Source: Paralichthys olivaceus
Lineage: Eukaryota > Chordata > Actinopteri > Pleuronectiformes > Paralichthyidae
DNA: 64,000 bases
Direction of reading: 5' to 3'
NCBI RefSeq assembly: GCF_024713975.1
Contig: NC_091108.1
Span: 45,001 to 109,000 of the forward strand
The notes under the pieces were generated by a model. That model saw only the letters and a list, made by a program, of their open reading frames with translations. It had not been told where the DNA came from and did not search any database. Shown piece after piece: positions 8,819 to 62,863 of this stretch. The position numbers and the translations under genes were made by a program. Every line of letters starts with the position of its first letter. The first letter of the stretch is position 1.

Positions 8819-11800
8819 TTACGAGCAGCCGCATTCGTCCACAATCATGTTCTGAATATCTTTCTTGATGATTTTTTGCTCTTCGTTGTAGTAAAGCATC
8901 GACATAGCGCGCAGCCTCATTGGCACGCAGCAGGACTTGATATTTTGAAACGGGCCAAAGCCTCTCATGCGATAATGATTGATGACCGTTGAGTGGAAGG
9001 AGAGCGATGAGCTGCTAAGGCTCACCATGTGGTTCGGACAGTCGCCCTCACAGTAGTTGGCATGATAACCTGATGGAGCAATAATCCAGTCGTTCCAGCC
9101 AATGTCTTTGAAGTTTACATAAAACTGTCTTTTACAGCAGACGCGTATTTTTCCATCACACTCCAAACTACGTTTGACTCGTCGCTGCATCTTCTCCTCC
9201 TGAGCTCGGAGAGCCACCATGAGGAATGGTCGATGAGACTGATCTCGACCTCCTGCTCGCTCGCTGTTGGGAGGCATCAGGACATGTGAAACTCCAGCCT
9301 CCACACAAAGCGGACAGGAAACCTTCAGGCTGAGTGAGCTGCTTCCGCCATCCAACAGGTCCTGAACGCTGTGAGGGATGGGGAGGGTGTGCCAGCCGCT
9401 GCGACGGGTGTCCACCATCTTCTCTGAAACACATTCCTGCTCCTTATCATTGTCATGCTCATGCTGTAGCAGCCGCAGCAACACTTTGCGCTTTAATCGG
9501 TTTCCCTTTGACATTTTCAGAAAGATCCAGACATTGGCCTGTTCCACTACCACTGAGCCACTGCCCTCCTTCGAGATGTCAAAGGTCATCATGTTCTGAG
9601 AGTCACCTGTAGCAGAGAACACAGTTAGCATGGTAGCATATTAGCAGGAATGAACTTTTTCCATCAGCATGAAGATCTATCACAACCATAAACATTAATG
9701 TTAGTCTGCAAAATCAAAGACATGATCTGAATGATTAGGGTTACATTATTTTAGAGTTGAATGTACTGTGCGAAAACCTTTCACTGGATCAGTTGTTGAA
9801 AGCTTCACTTATTGTTTATTTAAGATTTGACTTTGACCTCTGACCTCAGTCTGATGATAAAAAATTTCAACTGACTACAGAGAATAAAACTTAATATTTT
9901 AAACAATCAAACTCAGATTTTCTCTTGAATTAAACGAAATGTATCAACATCAACAACCTTTGAACCCCTGTCTGAACTTCCTTTCATTTGAATGAACAAA
10001 GAAAATGTCATTAACAATAATACAGTGAACTGGGCCGCTGCCTCTAAATATACTCAACATGAGCTGAGACACTAAAAAAAGAAGAGGCCTGATTTCAGGG
10101 AACAAGGACACTAGTATCCCCCCCACCCCTGTGTTTAATTACTGAGGCCCAGATTCATCTGAATGAAATTATTCACGGCCTCAGATCACGCGGTATTCCA
10201 CCCCAGCCCCCATCCCCACCCTACCACCACCCCCTCGTTACTGTCGGCAAAGCTTTTAATTAAAGAACTTTTCAGAAGAGACAACTATTTATAGCACAAA
10301 GCATTTATGTACATTTATGTAAGCAAACCAGTGACAGGACAGTGATTGTTCACAACATTGTTCACGTTCTCAAGAACATGAAAAGATTAAAAGCTGTTCC
10401 ACTAAACTTCAGTTAATGATAATCATTAAAATAATGCACCAGATGTGTTCAGGTCTGGACAGATGAAAAAATGAAGCACAGGCTCTGTCTGATGAGTTTA
10501 ATAATAACCTAAGAACCTTTTTTTACTGATTACAAACAAGTGAAGAGAATGGAAGAGGTGAAAATAAATGCCAACCTTAGTCTCAGTAAAATCAATTGAA
10601 TTAGATACAAACACCCTCCCTCATCGCCCCAACACAAAATCTGTAAATTAATATTTTAACTTTTAACGGTAACAAGAAGTAACAGATGTAACGGTAACAG
10701 ATGTAACAGTAACAGATGTAATGTAACAGATGTAACAGTAACAGATGTAATATAACGGATGTAATGTAACAGATGTAACAGTAACTGGTGTAACAGTAAC
10801 AGATGTAATGTAACAGATGTAACGGATGTAATGTAACAGATGTAATGTAACAGACGTAACGGATGTAATGTAACAGATGTAATGTCACAGATGTAATGTA
10901 ACAGATGTAACAGTAACAGATGTAAAGTAACAGATGTAACCGTAACTGATATAACATAACAGATGTAACAGTAACAGATGTAATGTCACAGATGTAATGT
11001 AACGGATGTAATGTAACAGATGTAACTGATGTAACATAACATATGTAATGTCACAGATGTAATGTAACAGACGTAACTGATGTAACATAACAGATGTAAC
11101 AGTAACAGATGTAATGTAACAGATGTAACCGTAACTGATGTAACATAACAGATGTAACAGTAACAGATGTTATGTAATAGATGTAATGTCACAGATGTAA
11201 CAGATGTAACAGTAACAGATTTAACTCCAGAAAAAGGGACAAAAGATAAAGTTAATGATCAATTTGATTCATGAAATGCGCTAAAAAATCTGTTTACATA
11301 ATTATTCCTTGTGGTTAGTGAGACCTCCTCAAACTGTTCTACAAAATACTCACATTTCTAAATTATACTGTCACTTTTTATTGTTTTTGTGCTGTACATC
11401 ATGTGAAGAGCTTTATCCCATCACTCTATGGTGCAAATTGAAATTAGAAAAAGTTGTGTTCATCCTATCGGCTTTATTTTGTCTCACGGATTTTATAGAT
11501 TCTTTGTTATTGCTGACATGTTTCTCTTATGTTTGAATTAATTATTGAACAGCTGTTCATTTTTCATGCATTACATGTTGACTATTTCAGAGATTTTTTA
11601 AGTAATCAACACAATCTTCAGGGGCCAAGATCTACTGTTTCTACTGTTTCTTCTGTTTCTTCTGTTTCTACTGACTCAGATCTACAGGTTTGCCTGCAGT
11701 CAATCAATTTCTTTTATGACAAAAAATCATTCAGCAGCTGAAGGTCAACAGACAGTAGAAATAGTAAGTAGCTAACTGTAAACATGTTCCTCTGAGCTGG

Positions 11801-12236
11801 TGAAATTGAAAGATGACCTGAAGGTTTATGATTGGCATTCAGACTCACCAGGCTCTGCAAAGATGATGATTTCTGACGGTGGTTCAGGTGGTGTTGGAGC
11901 CCCAGGGACCCAGCCCTCCTCCTGGATCTCAATGCTGCCGTCTTTGCTCACGTGGCCCACGTGCAGCTTCTTGATGGCGTTGAGCAGTGCGGCGCGAGGG
12001 ACCGGCTGCGTAAGGTTGGGTCTGTTGCTCAGGTGCAGCATGTTGAGAATGTGACGCTTTACCACCTCGACCACGTCACTCTCTCCCCCTGATGAAGAGA
12101 TGTTCCTCTTCATTAGAGACAGAGAGCAGGATGGACAGTCGGTGGAGGACACTAAATCGACCTCAGGAGCTGGAGAGATCGCCGAGGAGGAATTGACCAG
12201 GAGGATGACAGCCACAAAGAAGAACAGAGAAGACAT
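8819..12236 (-). CDS. inhba: Inhibin beta-A chain (activin A subunit)
   Basis: Two coding exons on the minus strand: 12236-11849 (129 codons plus one base) and 9606-8819, with a phase-1 GT-AG intron of 2.2 kb. Together they give 391 aa, the usual size for fish inhba. The start codon opens a hydrophobic signal peptide ([14 protein letters not shown]). The propeptide follows and ends at a furin site RVKR. The mature 116 residues begin SLECDG and carry the TGF-beta cystine-knot pattern ([35 protein letters not shown]). This C-terminal domain is very close to human activin beta-A. The secreted dimer signals through type II/type I activin receptors to SMAD2/3, acting in the gonad, pituitary and early development. 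Teleosts often have two inhba paralogues (a and b), and which one this is cannot be decided here. The gene is the left neighbour of amph and is transcribed away from it. Confidence 0.96.
10285..10294. promoter_or_regulatory. MEF2-type box in inhba intron
   Basis: The perfect palindromic consensus CTATTTATAG lies in a relatively complex, non-repetitive part of the inhba intron (about 10080-10330). This could be part of an intronic enhancer. The evidence is only the motif. Confidence 0.2.
10665..11222. repeat. Minisatellite TAACAGATGTAATG in inhba intron
   Basis: About 560 bp of alternating 10- and 14-bp units (GTAACAGATGTAA and variants with TAACGGATG or TAACTGATG). Most units contain CAGATG, an E-box. 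On the minus strand the array is free of stops over long stretches and gives spurious Leu/Tyr/Cys-rich open frames that are not genes. Confidence 0.9.
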
Positions 12237-12328
12237 GACAGGCTCTGAATCAGAGTCAGTAGAAATAGTAGATTGAATGTCCGTCTCTGCTTAAGAGACT
12301 CACAGAATCCCTCAGATCAAATCCTCAG

Positions 12329-19700: not shown

Positions 19701-22700
19701 GTGAGCATTGAGTGAATATATAACATATTATATATATATATAATATATAATGTTGTCATATACAGTAGATTTCAGACCTGACAGTAGAATACATCCTTAT
19801 TTCTACTGACAGTTCAGGTCGTGAGATCTGACGTTCATCTTAAACAATGCTTCCCAGTTTTCATTCAGCATCTTCACATCAGTTTGTTGATTGACTGTCA
19901 CTTTTTTTTACACTATAAAACTAATATTGTGACATCACTGGATGTGGAGTTTGTTTTTGATAAACTCCCATCATACAACGCTGCAGCAGAAAAAATGGTG
20001 AAATGGACAATGCCTTGTTTCAAAAAGTGCTTAATATCTCTGTGAAGATCAAGTCTGTATCTAAAAGTAGAGTTAGGGTTTGTGAAAAATTCAGTGTCAA
20101 AGTTCAGTCAAAATTCAGTTTCAAAGTTCAATCAAAATTCAGTGCAGTAAACGTTCAGTTCCATTGATTGTTCCACCTCCTGACACCATTTGTTACCTCA
20201 TCAGCAGCAGAAAAGAGGGTGCTTCTAGCTTAAATAGAGGACATATGACACAAAACCCTCCTGACCCTTGGTAGGTTCCTGACCCTCAGCAGGTTCCAGA
20301 CTCTCAGTAGGTTCCTGACTCTCAGTAGGTTCCTGACTCTGTTTCAGTTCCTGACCCTTGGTAGGTTCCTGACCCTCAGCTGGTTCCAGACTCTCAGTAG
20401 GTTCCTGACCCTCGGTAGGTTCCAGACTCTCAGTAGGTTCCTGACTCTCAGTAGGTTCCTGACTCTGTTTCAGTTCCTGACCCTCGGTAGGTTCCAGACT
20501 CTCGGTAGGTTCCTGACTCTCAGTAGGTTCCTGACTCTGTTTCAGTTCCTGACCCTCGGTAGGTTCCAGACTCTCGGTAGGTTCCTGACTCTTGGTAGGT
20601 TCCTGACTCTCAGTAGGTTCCTGACTCTGTTTCAGTTCCTGACCCTCGGTAGGTTCCTGACCCTTGGTAGGTTCCTGACCCTCGGTAGGTTCCTGACTCT
20701 GTTTCAGTTCCTGACCCTCGGTAGGTTCCTGACCCTCGGTAGGTTCCAGACTCTCGGTAGGTTCCTGACTCTCAGTAGGTTCCTGACTCTGTTTCAGTTC
20801 CTGACTCTGTTTCAGTTCCTGACTCTGTTTCAGTTCCTGACTCTGTTTCAGTTCCTGACCCTCGGTAGGTTCCAGACTCTCAGTAGGTTCCTGACTCTCG
20901 GTAGGTTCCTGACTCTCTGTAGGTTCCAGACTCTTGGTAGGTTCATTAGAAACAATAGAAGACTGTTTCTTCAGAGGCTTGCCCCCCCCCCCCCCCCCCC
21001 CACTGGGCTGAATCTGTGTTGGGAACCAGTGTTTTAAAAATATCTCATCAATCACCAGAATAATGAATTAGAAACAGTAGAACATTTCATCAGAACATTG
21101 TTGTAGATGTCCATGTGTTTGTGGTTTAACACCTCAGAATATTAAAAAAACTGAAGCATTTTCAGTTTTTATTCCACTGACCTGTAACATGTCTCTGTCC
21201 TGTTCACATGTTCATGTGTCTCCATCCTCTTCATGTATTCATGGTAAGTAACCATGTCACATTCAGTGTTTTTTCAGTTTTCTGCGATTATTTAAAGATG
21301 CGTCACTCAAACACGTCGTGTTCAGATTGTTTGATTCAGTTTACGTCTGGATCATTATTCTGCAGAAAGTAATGAACATGTTTAGCAATAATTCTCAGAC
21401 AGACATTAACATTCATTGCATGATTAAATGGTGATTGATTGATAACTAATGGTATTACGACCCAAAGTGAGTGAAGAAAACATCCCCACACCATCACAGA
21501 TCCACCTGCAGGCTGGACTGTTGATACCAGACAGGTGGGCTCCATGGATCTTAACTGTTGCCATGATTACACCCGGAGTTTTCCAGCCTCTGAATCAGAG
21601 ACTTGTGTGAACTGATCTCGTTTCAGTTTGAAAACTCTGGTTTTGTGTTTTAGTCTGAACAGAAACTGAGACATTAGTAAACGATGACGCCCACGTTCAC
21701 GTTCTCTTCTAATGACGCCCACGTTCTCTTCAAATCAGTCACATGACTCGACTACCAACGGTGAACACAAAGCATCGCTATCACTTCCTGTCAGTAACAG
21801 TTCCATCTCGTCGTCGCTCAGAAAAAAGAAATCTCTGCTCTTACTTGTCACCATCACTGCTCCTCCTTCAGAGGTTTTTCTTTTTTTTCTGATTTTTTTT
21901 TCCAAAAGTTAAACTTTGAAGTTTAATGTTTTTCTTGTTTATTTGTTGGTCAATAATTTATTTTCGTGTTTGAAATGTACGACATGTGTGATCATGTGAC
22001 TGCTTGCGGCATATTAATAACATCACATCTGTTAGAAATTAAATGTCAGTTGTCTGAATAGTCAAATACTATTTTAGATTGAATGACCTCTAATTAATAT
22101 AATCATGCAATTATTGATTAGGAATAAAGAATTTAGCTGCTGTGGATTAATGCTAAATTAATTCATCCTCTCAATAAAATCGACCGCCATAATACAAACC
22201 AAAGAATCCAGAGTTTCTGTAACTCTTAGAAGAAAATGAAATGTTAATGTAACTCTATTACAACTCTATCACATGTAATGCTGTAAAGTGCCGTAGCGGA
22301 GTGAACTGTATCATTGTTTGTGTTTTGTCCACATGTGGCGTCATCAAAACATCCATTGAAATGTTTCATTAAAGTCAAGAGGTTCTGTTTGATCTATTTA
22401 TGAATTAACTCTTTGTTTCCTCTGACAGTTTAAAAAGGGACCACCGGTTCCTCCACCACCAAAGGTCACACCAACAAAGGAGGTGGCAGAGGAGCAGATT
22501 ATTGACCTGTTTGGAGGAGAATTTTTACCTGCACCTTCACCATCACAGGTTGGGGTCCTCACAGACTCAGTGTTTGTTAAATCTTTATGATATGTTATGT
22601 TCACCTGCTTTTGTTTGGATGTTGTCCACAGCCCAATGAACGACCTGGAGAATCTCTACTTGACCTGGACTTTGATGCTTTTCAGCCTGATGAGAGTGTT

Positions 22701-30285: not shown

Positions 30286-33200
30286 ATGGGGGTCTGTGCG
30301 GGTCTGTGCGGGTCCCTGCTGGTCTGCCTGACCCTGCTGCTCTCCGCGGCCCCCCCTCTGACTGCTTGGGAGGCGGATCTGGAACTACTGGACCTAGTGG
30401 AGGAGATCCCGCAGACCTTCTACCAGTTCCTGTTCCTGGACCAGGTCTGTGCTAACGGCTAATAGCAAACTGTCTCCATGGTAACCTTATGGAAGGGTTA
30501 AGGCAACAATGCTAACACCTGAATGCTACTCGCACACGAGGCTAAGCTGTTTAGCATTGGGAGCTGATGTAGAAAGAGAACCGGACCAATGACCCCAGTT
30601 CAGTTTCATGCTAACACCTGATTCTAACTGCAGTGGAGTCACGAGGAGAAAACATTCCCCTCACCTGTCTGTCCTCTCTCCTCACCTGTCTGTCCTCCCC
30701 TCACCTGTCTGTCCTCTCTCCTCACCTGTCTGTCCTCCCCTCACCTGTCTGTCCTCCCCTCATCTGTCTGTCCTCCCCTCACCTGTCTGTCCTCCCCTCA
30801 CCTGTCTGTCCTCCCCTCATCTATCTGTCCTCTCTCCTCACCTGTCTGTCCTCCCCTCATCTGTCTGTCCTCCCCTCATCTGTCTGTCCTCTCTCCTTAT
30901 CTGTCTGTCCTCCCCTCACCTGTCTGTCCTCCCCTCACCTGTCTGTCCTCCCCTCATCTGTCTGTCCTCCCCTCACCTGTCTGTCCTCCCCTCATCTGTC
31001 TGTCCTCTCTCCTCACCTGTCTGTCCTCCCCTCATCTGTCTGTCCTCCCCTCACCTGTCTGTCCTCTCCTCATCTGTCTGTCCTCTCTCCTTATCTGTCT
31101 GTCCTCCCCTCACCTGTCTGTCCTCCCCTCATCTATCTGTCCTCTCTCCTCACCTGTCTGTCCTCTCTCCTCATCTGTCTGTCCTCCCCTCACCTGTCTG
31201 TCCTCTCTCCTCATCTGTCTGTCCTCCCCTCATCTGTCTGTCCTCCCCTCATCTGTCTGTCCTCCCCTCACCTGTCTGTCCTCCCCTCATCTATCTGTCC
31301 TCTCTCCTCACCTGTCTGTCCTCCCCTCATCTGTCTGTCCTCCCCTCACCTGTCGGTCCTCCCCTCATCTGTCTGTCCTCTCTCCTCATCTGTCTGTCCT
31401 CCCCTCATCTGTCTGTCCTCCCCTCACCTGTCTGTCCTCCCCTCATCTGTCTGTCCTCTCTCCTCATCTGTCTGTCCTCCCCTCATCTGTCTGTCCTCCC
31501 CTCACCTGTCTGTCCTCTCTCCTCATCTGTCTGTCCTCTCTCCTCATCTGTCTGTCCTCCCTCCTCATCTGTCTGTCCTCCCCTCACCTGTCTGTCCTCC
31601 CCTCATCTGTCTGTCCTCCCCTCATCTGTCTGTCCTCTCTCCTCATCTGTCTGTCCTCCCCTCACCTGTCTGTCCTCCCCTCATCTGTCTGTCCTCTCCC
31701 CTCACCTATCTGTCCTCTCTCCTCATCTGTCTGTCCTCCCCTCACCTGTCTGTCCTCTTTCCTCACCTGTCTGTCCTCCCCTCACCTGTCTGTCCTCTCT
31801 CCTCATCTGTCTGTCCTCCCCTCATCTGTCTGTCCTCCCCTCACCTGTCTGTCCTCTCTCCTCATCTGTCTGTCCTCCCCTCATCTGTCTGTCCTCTCTC
31901 CTCATCTGTCTGTCCTCTCTCCTCATCTGTCTGTCCTCTTCTCATCTGTCTGTCCTCCCCTCACCTGTCTGTCCTCTCTTCTCACCTGTCTGTCCTCTCC
32001 TCATTTGTCTGTCCTCTCTTCTCATCTACCTGTCCTCTCTCCCCACCTGTCTGTCGTCTCTCCTCACCTGTCTGTCCTCTCCCCTCACCTGTCTGTCTCT
32101 CAGGACGCCTCAGCAGCAGAGATAAAGAAGGCGTACCGCCGTATGTCTCTCACTCTGCATCCGGATAAGAACAAAGACGAAGATGCTGAGACTCAGTTCA
32201 GACAGGTGAGGAAATAATACCAACACAAATACGTAGCTGTCGACCAATCACATTCAACCTCTGCTTCTGTTTTCAGCTCGTTGCCATTTATGAAGTCCTG
32301 AAGGACGAGGAGCGACGACGCAAGTGAGTCTGACCAGTTCACATCACCGTCCACTCTCAACAAATTTCCTTTCTCAAGGTCTCAAGTGTCTCCGGCATTC
32401 TTTTTGAAAAACATTTATTGACAATTCATGACCTTTTTAAAAATCTAATTACCGCAATTGTCTGAAAAGATCAAGAATAATATATTAATGTAAGGTTAAT
32501 AAAAATTGCAAGCAAATATGAGCGGGCCCTCGCCTCTCAAGGCTTCCCTGACCAATTTTTGTGGATCAAACTAGCTGTTGGGCGCTGTGACTGTTAGAGT
32601 ATGCTGGTATTAAGATGTATTCAGGGTGGGACCCGTATCACCCTTATGAAGTTTGACAGTGATTGGAGCAAAAACATGGAAGTTACAGCTACTTGAAATG
32701 TCAAAGCAATCTATTGAGATTTGCTGCCAAGCGATGGACACACCCTCTGACAAAACTTTCATTCACAAAGTTTGATTGTGAGGCATCACCAACTTGTTTA
32801 GGCTCTCCTGTCCAAATTTCAGATGCAAACAGGCTACCTGCAGGAAACCAAAATGTAAAACATGTTATTTCCTGTCACAGCTAGGGGGGCGCTATGGAAT
32901 TTATTAAATATTATCCTAGGGATCATTTCTGGGTGGGACTGAAATTCCTCATCACGCCACAGCCACGCCCCTGGACGTAAACTCACCAACTCAAAAAGTC
33001 CCTAACAAGACATAAACCAAATGTGAATTCTTTTGGAGGAAATCTGTAGGAGGAGTAGGATTTTATGTGTCAAAATGACAAAAATTATGCAAAATTTGCA
33101 CCTTCAATCCAAATTGCTGACTTCCTGTTGGGTGTGGTGAAGAGTGGCAAGAGGACTTTTTGTGCAGCTTGGCATGATACTCGTGTGCCAAATTTCATCC

Positions 33201-45460: not shown

Positions 45461-45563
45461 CAGACACATGAACTGATTCATGAAGTTTTACTGATTCAAC
45501 AATCAGTTGAATCTGGTTTTAATCTGATTGATGTTCCTGTGCCTCCTCAGGTGTGATGCAGTC

Positions 45564-46808
45564 ATGTCTTTGCAGGTGGCGCTAGAGGAGAGAATCAGCT
45601 CTGCTCAGCTGTTGCTGCAGCGGGCAGAGCAGCTTTGTCTGGGTGTAGAGGGTCACCAGAAGCTCTGTGGTAAACTGCGAGCTGAGCTGCGCTTCCTGCG
45701 GCGGGTGGAGGCCGGAGAGCTGCAGGTCAAAGAGTCTCACCTGCACAGCACCAACCTGACTCACCTGACAGCCATTGTTGAGTCAGCCGAGAGTCTGGAA
45801 GACGTGGCGGCTCTGCTGCATGTCTTCACCTACCAGGATACCTTTGGCTGCCGCCAGACGCTGGTGGTGGACGTGGTAGCGAATGGGGGACGCACCTGGG
45901 TGAAGGCGGTGGGTAGGAAGGCAGAGGCTCTGCATAACATCTGGCAGGGGCGGGGTCAGTACGGAGACAAGAGCATCATCAAGCAGGCAGAGGACTTCCT
46001 GCAAGCCAGTCGCCAGCAGCCTGTCCATTACCAACACCCCCACATTGTCTTTGCTTTCTACAACGGCGTCTCTTGCCCCATGGCGGACCGACTCAGGGAC
46101 ATGGGTGTCTCTGTGCGTGGGGACATTGTAGCTGTCAATGCCGTGGCGACAGAGGAAGGCAGAGAAGACGAAGCCGAGGAGGAGGATGGGCAAGCAGCAG
46201 AAGAAGACCATGAAGAGGAGATGGAGGCGTGTGAGCTGACCCGAGTGGACCGCGGCACAGTGGTGGCCAGCCTGGCGTTTCCTGTCCAGGTGCAGGTGGA
46301 GGAGTGTCAGCGGGTGAACCTGGACATCACCACACTCATTACGTATGTGTCATCGCTGAGCCACGGCCGCTGTCACTTTACCTTTAGAGAGCCAGTGCTG
46401 ACTGATCAGGCCACTCAGGAGCGCTGCCAGCAGGTGCTGCCGCAGCTCGACGCCTTCATGTCGGGAAAGGAGCTGTTTGCCTGCCGTGCCGCTGTTTCTG
46501 ACTTCCAGCTGATCCTGGACACACTAGGGGGGCCAGGTGAGAAGGGGCGCGCTGAGAAGTTGCTGGCACGCCTTCACCTGGTGGATGACCAGCCATCAGA
46601 GCGAACTATGCGTCTCACACCCAGTGCCAAGGTCAACCAGCGCTCGCTCACCATCTTTGGGACTGGAGACTCGCTGAGAGCCGTTACCATGACAGCAAAC
46701 AGCAGGTTCGTTAGGGCGGCAGCTAATCAGGGCGTCCGATACAGCGTGTTTATCCACCAACCACGTGCTCTAACTGAGGGCAAGGAGTGGAGGGCCACAC
46801 CCATCTGA
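45564..46808 (+). CDS. c7orf25: UPF0415 protein C7orf25 homologue
   Basis: Single uninterrupted coding exon of 414 codons starting [20 protein letters not shown]. The open frame runs 36 bp farther upstream, but that part crosses a splice acceptor (CTCCTCAG at 45550), so 45564 is the better start. The family's signature stretches are all present: [123 protein letters not shown] and [10 protein letters not shown]. The function is unknown; the family is a conserved cytosolic or nuclear protein of unassigned activity. An acidic insertion (about residues 195-217, [14 protein letters not shown]) precedes the second half. A polyadenylation signal AATAAA lies near 46927. In humans the gene sits at 7p14 beside PSMA2. 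Confidence 0.96.
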
Positions 46809-47874: not shown

Positions 47875-50800
47875 ATGTCTCGAGTGAAAGCAGAGGACGA
47901 GCTGCGGACTCTGTTGGAGGTGAGTCTCTAAACTTTCAGTTTCTAATCTAACTTCACCACTTCAGCTGCTGCAACCTGATTAGCATGTGCAGCTAACAGG
48001 GACTCTCCATTATGACCCATTCATAGCTGTTAAGGTTAGCATGATGCTAACAGTGTCCCCTCTGTCCCTCAGTGTAAATACGTGTTTCCAGAACAGACTG
48101 TATTTGATCTGCAGCGGGTTCGAACCCTTTATTCGGATCTTCGACTTTATGTGGATTTTTATTGTAAGTATCGAATTTATCCCTTTACTTCCTGTCTGTT
48201 TCAAGATAAAAGCACGTTGACGGAGTGTTGACCACAGGTCTTAAGAATCGGGTCTTGGTGGTTCCTGATCGCCCAGAGTCTGATCCTGCACGATCTGGTT
48301 CAGATTGTATTACTTATAAATCAAACGAAAAATGTGTTGATCAAATATTATTGATTAATGTAGCCATTGTTTGTCTAAACAGGTTTTCCAAACAAAGAGA
48401 AGAAGAAGCTGGTTTACCTGGCCGGGACACTTCCTGTTCACTATGAAGGTGAGACCAACAGGTGACCTGGTCTGACCTGGACTCTGACCTCATGTGTAAC
48501 TGTGGCGTACGAACAAAACAAGATTTGAAAGATGAGTTCACCACAGTGAGAATGTGCGCACTTGTACAAACATGTTGGAGAAGAGAAAGTGTTGATGCAG
48601 ATGATAAAATGAAGTCAGATCCACTTTATCATAAACGTTAAAGCAGACGTGTTATTTGTTCTGAGACTGAAGTATTCCATAAGAACCTTTAATTGTAAAA
48701 GATGAAAACAATTTAAAGCAAATTACACTCACTAAAACAACAGTTACAGAACGGAGAGATTCATAGTTTTTAATACTATTCTAACACTGTGTGTGTACAC
48801 TTGAACTTATTTCTTTGTGAGGACTATTTTGAGCATAGATCCTACAGAGTGAGGACATTTTGAACAGTCTGCACTTTTTCAATGGGCTTTTTGAGGGTTA
48901 AGACTTAGCTTTAGAATTAGGTTTAGGTTAGAGTTAGGCATTTAGTTGAGTTAGGGTTAATGTTAGAGGCTGGCATATGCATTATGCCTATGAGGGTCCT
49001 CACTATGATAGAAGCACAAGACTGTCTGTGTGTGTGTAGTCTGGTCTGGATCAGTCTGGTGTTGTTGACTCTCTGCAGGAAGTGAGTATAATATCCCAGT
49101 GTGCATCTGGCTTCATGAGACCCATCCAGTGTCCCGTCCTCGCTGTTATGTCTGTCCATCCGTCACCATGCTGATTAACCCATCCTGTCGCTGTGTGGAC
49201 GCCTCCGGCAACATCAGTCTGACCGAACTAAAGAACTGGACACTCGTAAGTCCCAGTTAGCATGCTCAGTCCACCTGGATACACCTATCCAGTAGCAGAC
49301 TGTAGTAATCCAGATCCTGTCAGTGCTGCTGGTCCACTAAACCAGGATCAGGACAGAATCTCTCCTCTGTCCTCCTGAATCCGAGCTTCTAATGTAGACC
49401 CAGTGCTTTCAGTTACCAGGGAAACAGACAAGTCTTCCCTCCAGTTCCTTGAGTTCCAACATTTTAGCCTAAGTTCTTTTCTGGTTCTTTACTGTCTCTC
49501 TTTAGCTCTTTTTGATTCAAGAACGATTTTCAGTTGAAAATTTTAATCAATATTTCCCATGCAACAAATGACTTGTCATTGTTGCTAATGTTGATGTCAC
49601 TTCCTGTCAGGGTGTGTCCAACCTATCACTGCTCATGTCAGAGATGAGGCGGGCCTTTCAAGTCGACACACCCCTTTATGCCAGGTGTCCCCAACAAGCC
49701 CTGCCCCCTGCAGACGGAAGGTCACACAGGTTATCACTACATGTGCTGTTGATGATCGTTAAATATTATTGATTAGTGGTTATAATCAAGTTTTTACTGC
49801 TCTGTTTCTTCTTCCTGCAGCCTCCACCATACCTCTATCCTCTCCTCCTCCATCACATCCTCCTGCCTGTCAGCACAGAAAGGTTAATCATATCTAAGCT
49901 AAATAATAGCTTTTTAGCATTCTAACTTTATCATGCATGTTTGTGACCTGATGAAGCCCCTCCCCCTGTGTTTCAGCCAGTCAGTGGGAGCAGAGCAGGG
50001 AGATGAGGGTGAGGAAGTCGTACACTGAGGAGCTGCTGGGGATCGACTTCAGTGCTCCACCTTCCTCTAATCACAGCAACCTCCTGCTGACCTCCACCTT
50101 CTCAGGTGAGACTGGACAGGTGAACTCAGGTTAACGAGCTGACTGAGCTGAGGTACACATGGACCACAGGAGTCAAAACCTCTCTCACAGACACACACGA
50201 CCTGGAGGAGTCGATAATTGAACCACAGAACTGATCTGGAATGAAACTGACTCTACTCCACTTGGTTTTGGTTCCTGCAGGTCTCCCTCCAGAGCCCCTC
50301 AGCAGGATGATGGGGGCTCTGAGACTGGATGAGTCAACTAGTGACCAGCAGAGTGACTCACTTGAAAAGATTGTCCAATCAGAGGCAGCGAGAGACAGGC
50401 ATGGAGCAGGCTCCGGACCACCACCTGGACTTCATCAGTACATGTGTCCTCAGAGTCAGTGTGAAGTAGCAGCTGGAGGGGGCCACATTAAGGTGAAGAC
50501 GACTGTAGGTCTCAATCCATCTCAGGTGTTGGTCCCAGTTGGTCTCAGTTTTCCTCTGTCCCTCCTTAGATGGTGGACCATCTTCCACCAGACCAGGCGG
50601 CCATCTTCCTCTCTCTAATGAGGATGGAGGGGCGGAACTTCAGGCCCAGTGATGTCATGGAGGCGGTCCGACTCAACAGAGACCTGCCGTCAGCTCTCAG
50701 GTTCCTGACTCACTGCTGCCCCATCTGTCAGGACCAGGTGACATTTAGCAAGGTGAGACCATGGACGTCTCAGGTGTCTTCTCTGATACAGATGTTTTCT

Positions 50801-53800
50801 TCTGTCAACTTAGTCTTCTCTTTATTTCCTGCAGATCATCACCATGACTCACTGCTCCTGCTTCCTGTGTCAGACTTGTTTCAAAACGTTTTTTTCAGCG
50901 GCTATTAAAGAGCGAAGTGTCGACCAGCTGGTTTGTCCTCAGTGTGGCAGACCTGAGGTCAAAGGTCAGGGGGCGATGGTGGAGTCCATGGAATACTTCA
51001 ACCTGCTGGACACTCAGGTGACCAGGTCACATGATCCGCTTTATTTCATCCATGGAAATGGTTGATGAAAAATGAAACCAGTTTTTTTGTTTATTTTGTT
51101 TGTTTGTTTGTTTGTGTAGATCCGTCACTTCCTGTCTCCTCAGGTTCATGAACTCTTCCAGAGGAAACTTAGAGATCGAGCTCTTCAGGAGATGAAGAAC
51201 TTCTGCTGGTGTTCTCACGTAAGTTAAACAAACAAAAACAAACACATCCTTGTTGGAGCTGGATGTGAAAAGTCTTTATTTGGACAAAATAATTCTGATT
51301 GTTTGTTTGTGTGAGGACACAGTTTTTAGTTTAAGTGGACAGACAGATCAAAGATTATTCATGTTCACATGACCTGATTATGTTTCTGTGTGTTACAGTG
51401 TTCGTTCGGTATACTTCATGAGGCTGAGCGATTGAGGATGGACTGTCCCAACTGTAAGAAGAGTACCTGCTCTCAGTGTAGATCACCTGTAAGACACACA
51501 CGCACACATAACTGTCTGTATCGTTGTACTGATATAAAACAGACACACATGTTTGCAGACTTCACTGTGACATCATTGTGACTCAATGTGATGTCACTGA
51601 CTCATTGTGACATCACTGGCTCATTGTGACTTCACTGAGACTCATTGTGATTCAATGTGATGTCACTGAGTCATTGTGACATCACTGACTCATTGTGACG
51701 TCACTGGGACTCAGTGTGACTCATTGTGACACGTTTGTCTGTTCCTCAGTGGTCTCGTCATCATCAGGGTCGGTCATGTGATCAGTTCCGACTGTGGCAG
51801 CAGCAGAACAAGTTAGACGACACCACGATGCTCAGCTACAACAGCATCGGTACGAATTCTGCAACATGAAGCTGGGTCCCTAAGGCCCCTCAGGACTCTA
51901 GAGCCCAAGCTGTAACTGAACATTATAGTTCTTCTCTGGTTCATGGGGCAGTGTTTTCTTGGGGTTAGGGAATGCATTATGTCAATCAGTGTCCCCACAA
52001 CTACAGAAAGACAAGTGTTGTGTGTGTCTCTCTGATGTGTGTGTGTTTGTGTAGAGTGTCCTGGGTGTTTCTGTGTCTTCAGTTTGTCGAGAGGAGGTTG
52101 TCTTCACTTCACCTGCAGTCAGTGTCAACATCAGTTCTGTGGAGGCTGCAGTCAGACGTTCAGCCAAGGAGCAGTGAGTTCTGCTGGTTCTACTGTTGAT
52201 TTGATTCATTAGATTATGTGGATGAATTTATAAAACTGAGCTGCTCTTCAAAACTTTCACTTTGTGAAACTTGTCACTCACTTGGCACCCACCCTTGAAA
52301 GAACTCGCTCCTGAAAAATCTTTTTTAGATGATGTTTTTTTTTTAGGACTGTGGGTTCTCTGTCGACTGTGGAACCAAAGGTCTTCATGCCCACCACCCC
52401 AGAGACTGTCTGTACCACCTGAGAGACTGGAGTGTGAGCCGCCTCCACCTGCTGCTACAGGTAAGAAGACCTGACACTGTTTGACGGAGCTGTTGCTTGA
52501 TGTTGACGTGAACTGTGCTTCTTTTCTAACAGTATTACAGAGTGTCTCCTTCCTGGTTTGAAGCAGCCAATGGCAGCTCATCTGACGACGGTCTGACAGG
52601 TGAAGTCTCTTCTGTTTCTCAGGTATGAACTGGGTTCTCTCACCTTCTTTAACATTGTGATTTATTTTCAGGAATGTGTTTGGTTTTGGAGCTGAGAGAC
52701 CATGGCAGTTTGCGGGAGGAGCCATGTGGACGACCTAATGAATACAGAGGATACTGCCGGTAAGACTAAACTATCACCAACAAACTATATAGGAGTAAAT
52801 CACCATGGTGACTGATGCTCAAGCAGGTTAAGGTCAAGATAAGATCAAAAAAGTACAGCAACTACTGATCAATCAGATCATTGAAAAATATGTGAATAGA
52901 GTCTTCCAGCAGGTGTCAGTGTTTCTTCTCATGTAAAAAACTTTTTCACATCGTCAGTAATTAATGACTCATGGTCGGGGTCAACCAGTTAGTTATTCGG
53001 TCAGTCTGTCTCCACCCATCTGTTCTGGCAGGTTGCACTATAAAGAGCATTTGGTGGAGTTGATCAACTGTTGTGGTGCAGACCCGGCTGTCCTCTTTAA
53101 TGTGGCAGAGATGACAGCAGAGCTTCAGCGCTGTCAAGTCGCCGTGCCGATTCGGAAACCAGACGAACTGGAGCCGCTGTACGCTCACCGTCTGCGTCTG
53201 GTCAGTGACATCAACATCATAAACACAAGCTTAAAATGTCCTTAAAGGGATAGTTCAACCAAAAATGAGAATTCCCTCTTTATCTTCTCACCACTATGAT
53301 GGAGGGGGGGTGAAGTGTTTGAGTCATAAAACACTTCTGCAGTTTCAGGGGAAAACAGTATTAGAGCAGAATCCAACACAACTGAAGGCTAAAATGACAT
53401 TTAGGCTAAAAACTTGGTGTAAATGACCTTGTTTCCAGTTGAATTTGAATGTCGGGACTTGTGGACACTTGATGACATCACAGGAGCAGGATGGAGGCAT
53501 GTTGTGATTTTTATTGTTTTATTACTTCTGTAGCTGGTCACCAGTTACTTCAGTTTGGATTCTGTGACTTTTAACAGCTGTCTCTGTGCTGTGATGGATT
53601 CTACATCCTGACTGAAAGTTTTCCAACAAACCATTACTGTCTGAATCGTCACACAGCTGGTTAGCAACAGCTTTCTCTAGGATTTCAGAAATGAAGGTTT
53701 GATATGGGTCTGTAATGAGCTCAGACCTCTGGATCAGGCGTAGGCTTTTTAAGCAGAGGTTTAATTACAGCTACTTTAAAAGCTTGAGGTACGTAGCTGG

Positions 53801-54229
53801 TTAACAAATACATGTTCATCTGATTTAATATGGAACTGTCAATCAGGGGGAATACTTCCTTAAAAAGTCCAGTTGGGACAGAGTCTAATAAAGTTGTTGG
53901 TTTAGATGATGAAACTAGTGATGTCAGTTCAGAAGATCAATAAAAGAAAAGAGGTTCAAATATAAATCTGGTGCTACAGAATCATCATCAATAATAATCA
54001 TTATTAACAGAATCATGGATTTTATGTGTCTGGTTTAAGTTTGTTATTTTTTATTTTTACTTTCAGCCAATCACTGAGTAGGATTCTGTCTGTTCTTTAG
54101 ACTCTAACCAATCAAGTTCCTCTCAGGAAGCAACCACGCTCGCCGCTGAAACTTCACGACGACCTCCATCCTCTGACCTCTGCTGTAACGACTGGACGTC
54201 CGCCCCCTCCAAACACGCCACTGCATTAA
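47875..54229 (+). CDS. UEV-RBR-LDD protein, HOIP/RNF31-like E3 ubiquitin ligase
   Basis: 19 phase-consistent coding exons: 47875-47919, 48073-48163, 48383-48448, 49079-49245, 49611-49729, 49821-49882, 49977-50105, 50281-50492, 50570-50752, 50835-51017, 51120-51218, 51399-51488, 51750-51849, 52055-52173, 52347-52460, 52533-52599, 52672-52759, 53032-53200 and 54101-54229, giving 743 aa. Residues 15-150 are a UEV domain like TSG101 (LVYLAGTLPVHYEG, EYNIPVCIWLHETHP, VDASGNISL, LKNW). The E2 cysteine position is Ser, so it cannot carry ubiquitin. Residues 165-340 are a low-similarity linker ending in a helical, UBA-like part. RING1 starts at CCPICQDQ (about 347), followed by an IBR (WCSHCSFG, CPNCKKSTCSQC). 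RING2 starts at ECPGC (516), with the catalytic Cys at about 531 (SRGGCLHFTC). A HOIP-type LDD follows (HHPRDCLYHLRDW, GYCRLHYKEHLVELIN). HOIP builds Met1-linked chains in LUBAC, but its PUB, NZF and typical UBA regions are absent here. Substrate and linkage are unknown. Confidence 0.93.
51570..51740. repeat. Short tandem repeat in UEV-RBR intron 12
   Basis: About eight imperfect copies of a 20-bp unit, GACTCATTGTGACATCACTG, each carrying TGACATCA or TGATGTCA, close to a CRE/AP-1 half-site palindrome. It ends at the exon 13 acceptor region. Confidence 0.8.
53244..53520. mobile_element. TTAA-type fish MITE fragment
   Basis: Begins TTAAAGGGATAGTTCAACCA, directly after TTAAAATGTCC, the wording of a very common fish terminal repeat (AAAGGGATAGTTCACCCAAA). 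The right end was not located. It lies in the penultimate intron of the UEV-RBR gene. Confidence 0.5.
53690..53950 (-). mobile_element. L2-like LINE fragment
   Basis: Shares stretches with the copies at 5130-6880 and 60130-61030 (GGTACGTAGCTGGTTAACAA, GATTTAATATGGAACTGTCA). It is a non-coding remnant in intron 18 of the UEV-RBR gene. Confidence 0.65.
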
Positions 54230-54802
54230 AAGTGCTCTGTCACCATAGCAACCACTGACTGTGGTTTAGAGGTTTAGTTTCAGTGATGAACTAACAAATT
54301 CTAACAACACTTAAATAAATGTTTAATGCCGGTGACATTATTGGTGACATCCCTTGTCAGCTTCCCTCTGTGGCTTCTGATTGGCTCACTGGACTTCATA
54401 GAAACACAGCCAGAGAAAAATAAAAGGGACCAAAGAAAATCTAAGCAGCCAAACCGAGTTCAGAAGTGCAATTAACTTCAACGAGTTAAATGTTAATGAA
54501 AAGAGACAAGTTCTAATGTGCTGATGATGCTAACGAGCTTCTCAGTACAGAGTGTGGTTAACAGCAAGCGTTTGTTAGCATTTGGCCGACATTTGAGTGG
54601 TTTTATTCTTCTGCACTGTTTCAATAAAAAAATAATAAACGTATTTAAACATCTTTCAAATTCCTGTTTCCATGACAACCACAATAGGTAAATAGTGAAA
54701 GTCTCACACTGATTTTCCATTCTTCAGAAAAGAATGAGACGAGTTCAAAGGTCAAACTGAGACAAACAAGTAGAGTCACCAGTCTATATATAAACATACA
54801 GT

Positions 54803-60129: not shown

Positions 60130-61030
60130 CATATTAAGACCTGAAAGGGGTTAGGGTTATAGAGAAACCAACAGTTCACACAATGAAGAGCTCCGACGAC
60201 TGGGAGAGAACAAACTCTTTAACTGGAAGAAAGAACCAGAGTCAATGTGAGAAAGAGAGAGACAGAGAGAAAGAGAGAGAGAGAGAGGGACACAGAGTGA
60301 GAGAGAGAGAGAGTCCAGTCCAGAGGGAATAAATGGATGAGTTTCTCAGCGTCCTTCTGAGACAGGATGTTTCTATTGTTTTTAATATTGTGCAGGTGGA
60401 AGAAAGCTGTCCTAGAGACTTGTTCTATGTGTTGGTCAAATGTCCTGGTCCAACATAACTCAAGGTTCCTCACAGTGGAGCTGGAGGACAAACTCACACC
60501 AAGGTGACTCTGTTCAGACAGTGATTCTCTGAGATGTTTAGGGTCAATTACAACGACCTCAGTCTGAATTTAGAAGTAAGAAGTTGTGGCTCATCCAGGC
60601 CTTGATTTTCTGGAGACGTTCCTGAAGTTGAACTGAGTGATTAGATTCATCAGGCTTCAGAGAAATGTACAGCTGGGTGTCGTCTGCGTAACAATGGTAG
60701 TGTATGTGGAGCTTTCTGATGATGTTGCCTAAGGGGAGCATGTATAAGGTGAAGAGTATGGGTCCAAGGACAGAACCTTGTTGAACTCCATGACTAACCT
60801 GCATGTGCATGGGGGGGGGGGCATTGTTGACGTTGACAAATTGAAATCTATCTGATAAATATGATTGAAACCAGTCTGATGTTCCTCTGATCCCTTCACA
60901 CAGCTGGTTAGCAACAGCTTTTTCTAGGGTTTTCTAGGATTGTGGTACGTAGCCAGTTAACAAAGACATATTAATCTGATTTAACATGGAACTGTCATTA
61001 TGGGGAAAACTTTCTTAAAAAGTTAATGTG
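60130..61030 (-). mobile_element. L2-like LINE fragment with RT motif
   Basis: The minus-strand translation reads [39 protein letters not shown] and [12 protein letters not shown], the RT catalytic YADD region of L2-type ORF2. Lower down (60497-60320) it reads TFDQHIEQVSRTAFFHLHNI and ILSQKDAEKLIHLF, in another frame. A GA-rich run at 60245-60310 interrupts it. Inactive. Confidence 0.8.
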
Positions 61031-61628: not shown

Positions 61629-62863
61629 TTACAGTGACAGTGCCTGTGAGGTGTCACTGTCTGACATCACAGAGACTCGAGTTGAGCTAAGCGGACTCCT
61701 GTTGGTCTGACCCAGTTGACTCTTGTTGACCAATGGCATGCAGCGGCTGCTGCTGCAATGCAGGAGCTGTAGTACATCGTGGCGGAAACGCACGCCCACA
61801 AATGCATAGAGGAAGGGGTTGAGGCAGGCGTGCATGTAAGCCAGACTCTTTAGTACCTGTCCCAACATGTCGAAACGCTTCACCTCCTCGCAGTCCGTCA
61901 TAGTCATGTTGGAGGCCTGCGTAACCTCCATGACCAGTACACCATTGTAAGGCAGCTGGGACATGACGAACACTACCACCACAGCCAATATGACGCGCAT
62001 GGCCTTGTGCTTTTGGAAGTTTCGGGTATTGAGCAGCTTGGCAACAATAACGCTGTAGCAAAATGCCATGATGATGAAGGGTAAGAAGAACCCCATGCTC
62101 ACCAGTAATGACAGCACCACGATCTTGGTGCAGTTGCCCAGGTAAGTGGGGAACACCATCCTGCAGTACTGCTGAGAGTCCACGTTAACGATGGTGGCAA
62201 ACACAAGCTCAGGAGTGGCCAGCAGCAGGGCCAGCAGCCACACCCCCACACACACCAAGCAACTGTAGCGACGGCGCTCAAGCTGTGAGTTTTGTGCCCT
62301 GGTGGACTGGACAATGACAACATAGCGGTCAACACTGATGCATGTGAGCAGTAGCATGCTGCTGAACAGGTTCACCTTGTAGAGGGCGGAGTTGATCTTA
62401 CAGAGGGCAAAACCAAAATTCCAGCCGTGTGATGCCTCGGCCGCCCACAGCGGCAGTGTGACCAGGAACAGCAGATCGGCCACTGCCAGGTTCAGCAGGT
62501 ACACATCTGACATGGTCTTCAGTCGCCGCCGGAAGTTCAGGTAGATCCACACCACAGCCAGGTTCCCAGCTCCGCCAACCAGGGTGATCATCCAGAACAG
62601 CGGCGGCTCAAACAAACGCCTGAAAGTCCGCACTGGTGCCCGGTCACACATCAGGTCCTGGTCCTCGTAGTAGTCATCAGTGGTGAACAAGGACGGTTCC
62701 TAATTGGAAGAAATGATACACGTGAACTCAACTGCTGCACGTTTACCAGTCATTCGTCAAACCAATCAATGAACACACCAAATTGCAAAATAATCAATAA
62801 CTAACTGAACAGATTATTTCTTACCTTGGTGGTGAATCCTGTGATGTTCTTGAAGGCATCCAT
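61629..62863 (-). CDS. ccr9: C-C chemokine receptor type 9-like GPCR
   Basis: Two coding exons on the minus strand: 62863-62825 (13 codons, MDAFKNITGFTTK) and 62699-61629, with a phase-0 intron of 125 bp and a GTAAG donor. Total 369 aa, human CCR9 length. Seven membrane helices are visible. Hallmarks are NLAVADLLFLVTLPLW (TM2), a DRYVVIV box at the end of TM3, CYSVIVAKLL after TM5, SQLPYNGVLV in TM6 and HACLNPFLYAFVG in TM7. Conserved extracellular cysteines are in place (DLMCDRAPV, ALCKINSALY, QQYCRM, TDCEE). The tail ends TSQALSL, like TSGALSL of human CCR9, and the KHKAMRVILAVV loop also matches. It should bind a CCL25-like chemokine and signal through Gi in T-cell homing to thymus and gut. 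Fish CCR7 and CCR10-like receptors are the alternatives. A tyrosine-rich acidic N-terminus (TTDDYYEDQD) suits sulfation. Confidence 0.88.

Follow-up and report, generated by a model that had tools for sequence, protein, structure and literature searches.

A putative HOIP-type ubiquitin ligase gene of Paralichthys olivaceus joining a TSG101-like UEV to an RBR-LDD core

UEVLD is a UEV joined to an enzyme, and RNF14 carries an RWD domain, which has the fold of ubiquitin-conjugating enzymes (E2), in front of a RING1-IBR-RING2 (RBR) core. The title of PMC12513931 likewise names a UEV-lactate dehydrogenase protein. In HOIP (RNF31), the catalytic subunit of the linear ubiquitin chain assembly complex (LUBAC), the RBR is combined with a linear-chain determining domain (LDD). 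The accessible text of PMC12154395 calls HOIP the sole enzyme known to make linear ubiquitin chains, and that of PMC7125101 describes the LDD as unique to HOIP. The arthropod HOIP homologue LUBEL has a HOIP-type RBR behind a different N-terminus without PUB; it measures 3087 amino acids in Penaeus, and a UEV is not mentioned in the accessible part of that paper (PMC12154395). Here we analyze a gene found in 64,000 nucleotides of Paralichthys olivaceus DNA (the window, positions 45001-109000 of contig C16, NC_091108.1). With HOIP it shares the RBR and LDD, the catalytic cysteine, the cysteine zinc sites, the R935/D936 pair, and intron positions, but it has no PUB or UBA_HOIP match, starts with a UEV, and stands beside two separate ordinary rnf31 genes in the genome. 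With TSG101 (Vps23) of the endosomal sorting complex ESCRT-I it shares the UEV and its introns, but it lacks a match to the ESCRT-I core and carries an RBR-LDD. Like UEVLD it couples a UEV to an enzyme, in this case a ubiquitin ligase; like RNF14 it has an E2-like fold before the RBR, but RNF14 has an RWD instead of a UEV and is not known to have an LDD. We think it probable that this is one functional gene and the third HOIP-type ligase of the species, produced by an old join of TSG101-type UEV exons and rnf31 exons, with Met1-linked chain activity targeted by the UEV.

The gene lies on the forward strand at about 92.9-99.2 kb of the contig (Table 1). A base-by-base rebuild, from the ATG at 47875 to the stop codon ending at 54229, gave 19 exons and 740 codons without an internal stop, at exactly the coordinates proposed earlier by a sequence-only reading of the window. 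All 18 introns (72-900 bases) are GT-AG, and phase is kept throughout, the latter as that reading had claimed. A spliced protein-to-genome aligner written for this analysis, with the human HOIP and TSG101 sequences as queries, covered exons 2-4, exon 5 except its 3' end, and exons 10-19. It returned the internal boundaries of the model, apart from an end of exon 16 placed 9 bases too soon; where a local alignment starts and stops is uninformative. Of the remaining exons, exon 9 is supported by homology to an rnf31 exon; for exons 6-8 the evidence is their frame and splice signals.

Pfam recognized a UEV at residues 25-145 (E = 1.3e-33), IBR (1.3e-8), IBR_1 (1.6e-14), and E3_UbLigase_RBR (PF18091, the C-terminal HOIP domain corresponding to the LDD) at residues 583-675 (1.1e-19). 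No further Pfam domain appeared in the 740-residue protein up to E = 1, including PUB, UBA_HOIP, and a Vps23 core after the UEV, and an NCBIfam scan gave one weak, irrelevant match. In the PDB, residues 344-708 matched human HOIP (E = 2.7e-83) and residues 6-148 the UEV of TSG101. The 17 PDB matches at E ≤ 0.01 comprised 8 to RNF31, 7 to the TSG101 UEV, and 2 to the RING1 region of KIAA0161/RNF144A (E = 0.0069 and 0.0084). The Pfam and PDB matches are far above chance, and the LDD match is HOIP-specific, because the PDB matches of the RBR-LDD were to RNF31, with RNF144A confined to the RING1 region. RING1 was identified by the PDB alignment (Pfam gave no RING1 match). The predicted protein has the RING1-IBR-RING2 and LDD of an RBR-LDD ligase. 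These searches bear out both domain assignments of the sequence-only reading, a TSG101-like UEV and a HOIP-type RBR-LDD.

We searched the genome of the species (588 Mb in 25 contigs), scoring only the best candidates, so that absence elsewhere holds at that sensitivity. The RBR-LDD was found in the window gene and at two other loci, C16:22.52-22.55 Mb and C17:18.95-18.97 Mb, which look like ordinary rnf31 genes; the first lies near the far end of the window gene's own contig. Two retained rnf31 copies, like the homologies in general, would suit a teleost. All five genomic matches of the LDD profile fell within these three loci. Over the RBR-LDD, the C16 and C17 rnf31 genes share 220/364 and 209/362 residues with human HOIP, compared with 143 of 357 aligned residues (0.40) for the window gene, whose identity to each of the two fish genes is 0.39. 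UBA_HOIP exceeded its cut-off at both rnf31 loci, and PUB matched weakly upstream of both (2.0e-5 and 0.0095, below the curated cut-off). Neither profile matched in the window, for UBA_HOIP up to E = 10, in agreement with the earlier reading, which had set the gene apart from mammalian HOIP with its PUB and UBA domains; there is no sign of the LUBAC docking domains. Two loci are nearer to human HOIP, and the window gene is not the rnf31 of this genome. Genome-contig and viral-contig collections yielded no relative of the RBR part, as expected for a fish gene.

UEV matches occurred at four places, the window gene and three loci on contig C7 (L001, L002, and L003). L001 is clearly tsg101 (110/134 residues identical to human TSG101). 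L003 (C7:4460900-4464100) is a diverged TSG101-like UEV (66/141 identical to human TSG101); it has the strand and the UEV introns of tsg101, which it precedes by about 5 kb. The window UEV is identical to human TSG101 at 54/144 residues, to L002 at 47/144, and to L003 at 40/141. Three introns inside the aligned UEV coincide in both position and phase (1, 1, and 0) among all four genes. The first UEV intron has phase 0 in the window gene, L002, and L003, at places equal within 1-2 residues; the aligner did not resolve that of L001, and a separate reading of the L001 sequence fits. In the RBR-LDD, 8 of 10 introns are at places identical to those of the C16 rnf31 gene and the other 2 are within a few residues (doubtful micro-exons set by the aligner); in the comparison with the C17 gene, 7 coincide, 2 lie nearby, and the aligner left 1 unresolved. 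Since the UEV introns match the tsg101-type loci and the RBR-LDD introns match rnf31, the gene is best read as an exon-level hybrid of the two.

Exon 9 has a counterpart in both rnf31 genes, with phase 0 at either end; of 2000 shuffles, 8 and 9 scored as high as the respective alignments. Together with the intron matches, this homology places the beginning of the rnf31-derived part at exon 9, the UEV part being exons 1-5. Linker exons 6-8 have no relative elsewhere in the genome up to E = 1, and their matches at the rnf31 loci are at chance level (E = 0.72 or worse). Exon 9 had looked by eye like a UBA domain. Pfam found no UBA there, only an unrelated subthreshold match, and a PDB sequence search with exons 8-9 gave nothing up to E = 10. 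A single-sequence fold of exon 9 has four helices, three of them in the pre-RING1 segment, with a mean predicted local distance difference test score (pLDDT) of 63.7; its 20 matches in a fold search were led by a UBA (E = 3.2) and otherwise consisted of UBA domains and unrelated proteins. The UBA assignment was dropped in favor of homology to the rnf31 exon preceding RING1, which describes the segment better.

A small RBR-LDD phylogeny without an outgroup, of the kind the sequence-only reading had proposed, groups the window gene with neither rnf31 copy. Since its distances to human HOIP and to the two fish genes, which pair together, are about the same, the simplest reading is that it split from rnf31 before the human-fish divergence and was then lost in the human line; we know of no such human gene. 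Residues common to the window gene and both fish rnf31 genes to the exclusion of human number 16, and those common to it and human to the exclusion of both fish genes number 12. An origin as a teleost duplicate is not favored, given these counts and the two rnf31 genes being mutual nearest relatives (269/362 residues identical over the RBR-LDD). The gene may still be a fast-evolving later duplicate, since the root of this tree is not fixed.

A four-way alignment of the window gene with three HOIPs (human and the two fish rnf31 genes) contains 190 sites that are invariant in the latter. The window gene keeps 112 of them, including every one of the 28 cysteines and 84 of the 162 other residues. 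HOIP C885, H887, Q896, F905, L922, R935, and D936 are all conserved, with C885 corresponding to C528, H887 to H530, and R935/D936 to R578/D579; in a pairwise alignment, HOIP C916 is opposite D559, with a cysteine at the next residue. According to the accessible text of PMC7125101, R935/D936 contact the acceptor ubiquitin, and alanine mutants abolish linear ubiquitination. The predicted protein therefore retains the catalytic cysteine and cysteine zinc ligands of a HOIP-type RBR, both of which the sequence-only reading had reported. Of the HOIP-invariant sites, 17/23 are kept in RING2 and 49/73 in the LDD.

Several results, in the catalytic part, the joint, and the UEV, weigh against one UEV-targeted Met1 ligase. 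In the catalytic part, only 14/26 HOIP-invariant sites are kept in RING1, 27/52 in the following linker and IBR, and 5/16 in the IBR-RING2 linker. HOIP E976 and D983, which we take to be LDD contact residues, are changed to D and E, both conservatively, and the branch of the window gene is long, at 1.51 substitutions per site (LG+G4). Given this branch and the low conservation of RING1, IBR, and linkers, specificity may have drifted. The fusion could then be real and its product an RBR whose catalysis has drifted or whose role is regulatory, such as a scaffold targeted by the UEV or an enzyme that builds other linkages. We hold this to be unlikely, in view of the full set of invariant cysteines, of C528, H530, R578, and D579, and of the residues retained in RING2 and the LDD.

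At the joint, splice scores are low for three donors (introns 5, 6, and 8) and two acceptors (introns 6 and 8), and several sites of the linker exons are the weakest in the gene; training of the scoring matrix on the remaining 14 introns accounts for part of this. Exon 5 can be read past its donor as far as a stop in intron 5 (49770-49772), and exon 9 opens with an ATG at which a separate RBR transcript could begin. The region might thus hold two adjacent same-strand genes, one for a UEV protein on its own (exons 1-5) and one, from the ATG of exon 9 onward, for a truncated HOIP-like RBR ligase. This is rather improbable, as the gap between the parts is only about 850 bases, linker exons 6-8 hold the frame across 403 bases, and the rnf31 counterpart of exon 9 is likewise preceded by an acceptor, in the same phase. 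Polyadenylation signals also argue against it. In a scan from 47601 to about 55200, no AATAAA occurs between 47601 and 53886, hence none between the UEV and RBR parts (over 6 kb, such an absence is weak evidence); the only two before the stop, at 53887 and 53939, are inside intron 18, and the next follows the stop (Table 1). From the UEV exons to the last exon, ATTAAA occurs only once, at 50904 within exon 10. One transcript would carry both the UEV and the RBR part. A pseudogene or assembly chimera, which the sequence-only reading had also thought unlikely, is already largely refuted and extremely improbable: no direct evidence for it was found other than the gene lying less than 100 kb from the start of the contig, and against it stand 740 codons without stop or frameshift at about 40% identity to relatives, 18 canonical introns, and the wide separation from this genome's own tsg101 (36% identity) and from its two rnf31 genes (39% each).

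For the UEV, two indications of the gene that gave the front end differ: identity favors TSG101, but a tree of five UEVs, small and without support values, pairs the window UEV with L002 and not with tsg101. The domain is a member of the UEV family without an E2 catalytic cysteine, with S114 at the position of TSG101 Y110, presumably the place of that cysteine in E2s. The sequence-only reading noted that UEV domains recognize PTAP-type peptides and ubiquitin, and suggested that the protein could be a ligase targeted to ESCRT or to viral late domains. Of the 12 TSG101 peptide contacts listed in the accessible part of PMC7650771, it keeps 7 and has 3 conservative replacements (T92S, V141L, and F142Y) and 2 nonconservative ones in the PTAP pocket (R64E and S143A). 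This retention is not significantly above the background (7/12 versus 47/132, Fisher P = 0.11); the corresponding figures are 12/12 for tsg101 (L001), 8/10 for L003, and 6/12 for L002. PTAP reading is plausible. As ubiquitin contacts of TSG101 we take V43, N45, D46, F88, and W75. The first four are replaced by C, P, N, and Y, respectively (0/4 kept), which makes ubiquitin reading doubtful, though W75 is kept.

Our preferred reading, one gene encoding a UEV-targeted ligase, suggests a mechanism based on HOIP biochemistry from general knowledge and from the accessible text of PMC7125101. TSG101-type UEV exons would have been joined long ago to rnf31 exons, beginning with the exon leading into RING1. 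RING1 would bind a charged E2, from which ubiquitin would move to C528 of RING2. An acceptor ubiquitin, positioned by the LDD (R578/D579), would then attack through its Met1, producing linear chains. Since the UBA pair that binds HOIL-1L and SHARPIN is missing, the enzyme would neither need nor respond to these proteins and would act outside canonical LUBAC; since PUB is missing, OTULIN and SPATA2 would not dock. The UEV would bring the enzyme to P(T/S)AP-like peptides, such as those of ESCRT-linked cargo adaptors, more than to ubiquitin. A role involving viral late domains would be possible only as a consequence of such peptide targeting. Most likely, then, the predicted protein makes Met1 chains independently of LUBAC and is guided by its UEV, both its Met1 activity and its peptide targeting being predicted from residues and domains.

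Table 1. Exons of the UEV/RBR-LDD gene and the first polyadenylation signal after it, in window coordinates
Feature	Position	Strand	Content and evidence
Exon 1	47875..47919	+	Start ATG, residues 1-15; next intron phase 0, about the place of the first UEV intron in L002/L003
Exon 2	48073..48163	+	UEV; Pfam and spliced alignment
Exon 3	48383..48448	+	UEV; flanking introns phase 1 and 1, like tsg101 locus L001
Exon 4	49079..49245	+	UEV core; PTAP-pocket residues Y71, N72, I73, M98; UEV match in whole-genome search
Exon 5	49611..49720	+	UEV end; donor choice uncertain
Exon 6	49821-49882	+	Linker
Exon 7	49977-50105	+	Linker
Exon 8	50281-50492	+	Linker
Exon 9	50570..50752	+	Helical pre-RING1 segment and RING1 start (C344, C347); homologue of matching rnf31 exon
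Exon 10	50835..51017	+	RING1; PDB match and spliced alignment
Exon 11	51120-51218	+	With exon 12: helical linker and IBR
Exon 12	51399-51488	+	With exon 11: helical linker and IBR
Exon 13	51750-51849	+	With exon 14: IBR end, RING2 with catalytic C528 and H530
Exon 14	52055-52173	+	With exon 13: IBR end, RING2 with catalytic C528 and H530
Exons 15-19	52347-52460, 52533-52599, 52672-52759, 53032-53200, 54101-54229	+	LDD (Pfam PF18091) with R578/D579, short C-terminal tail, stop
First AATAAA 3' of stop	54314..54319	+	Motif scan

By eye, intron 12 is largely an imperfect repeat of gactcattgtgacatcact-like units (51560-51740), and intron 18 holds antisense frames (53522-53936, reverse strand) resembling the reverse-transcriptase end of a long interspersed nuclear element (LINE), like an RVT_1 match at 60559-60930. 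Elsewhere in the window, a TGF-beta domain gene, inhibin beta-like by eye, lies at 8819-9640 and 11826-12290 on the reverse strand; a DUF5614/DUF1308 gene, which we take to be C7orf25-like, lies at 45528-46808 on the forward strand; and a rhodopsin-family receptor, chemokine-receptor-like by eye, lies at 61629-62699 on the reverse strand. INHBA and C7orf25 are, we believe, near each other in people too. A long repeat at 30593-32217 (forward strand) is open in all three forward frames for more than 500 codons and runs into DnaJ-like sequence (by eye), and another at 20225-21067 is open on both strands for more than 260 codons.

No UEV-RBR fusion was met in the open-access literature searched. 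None was seen in the accessible parts of PMC12575339, PMC6723134, PMC12778051, PMC7125101, PMC12513931, PMC7650771, PMC12154395, PMC10315677, PMC7056813, and PMC11354881, and the main text of PMC5618308 gave no match. In salmonids, an "RNF31-like" protein changes in abundance in a study of ubiquitination after infection (PMC12575339), and one is listed near a marker in a scan for resistance to infectious pancreatic necrosis virus (PMC6723134); which gene is meant cannot be told from the accessible text of either. Genome databases may already list the window gene under a name such as "RNF31-like."

More tentatively, we suggest that the gene could represent an ancient second family of vertebrate linear-ubiquitin ligases, kept in fish and, to our knowledge, absent from people, in which a TSG101-type UEV would direct the making of Met1 chains, independently of LUBAC, to ESCRT or endosomal cargo that bears P(T/S)AP. 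If the reading of the gene is true, a vertebrate has, in addition to two ordinary rnf31 genes, a differently targeted HOIP-type enzyme that lacks the LUBAC docking domains, and linear ubiquitination would be addressable by another route. An rnf31 knockout in fish may then leave some Met1-ligase activity, and the gene would lend itself naturally to studying whether ESCRT sorting involves linear chains.

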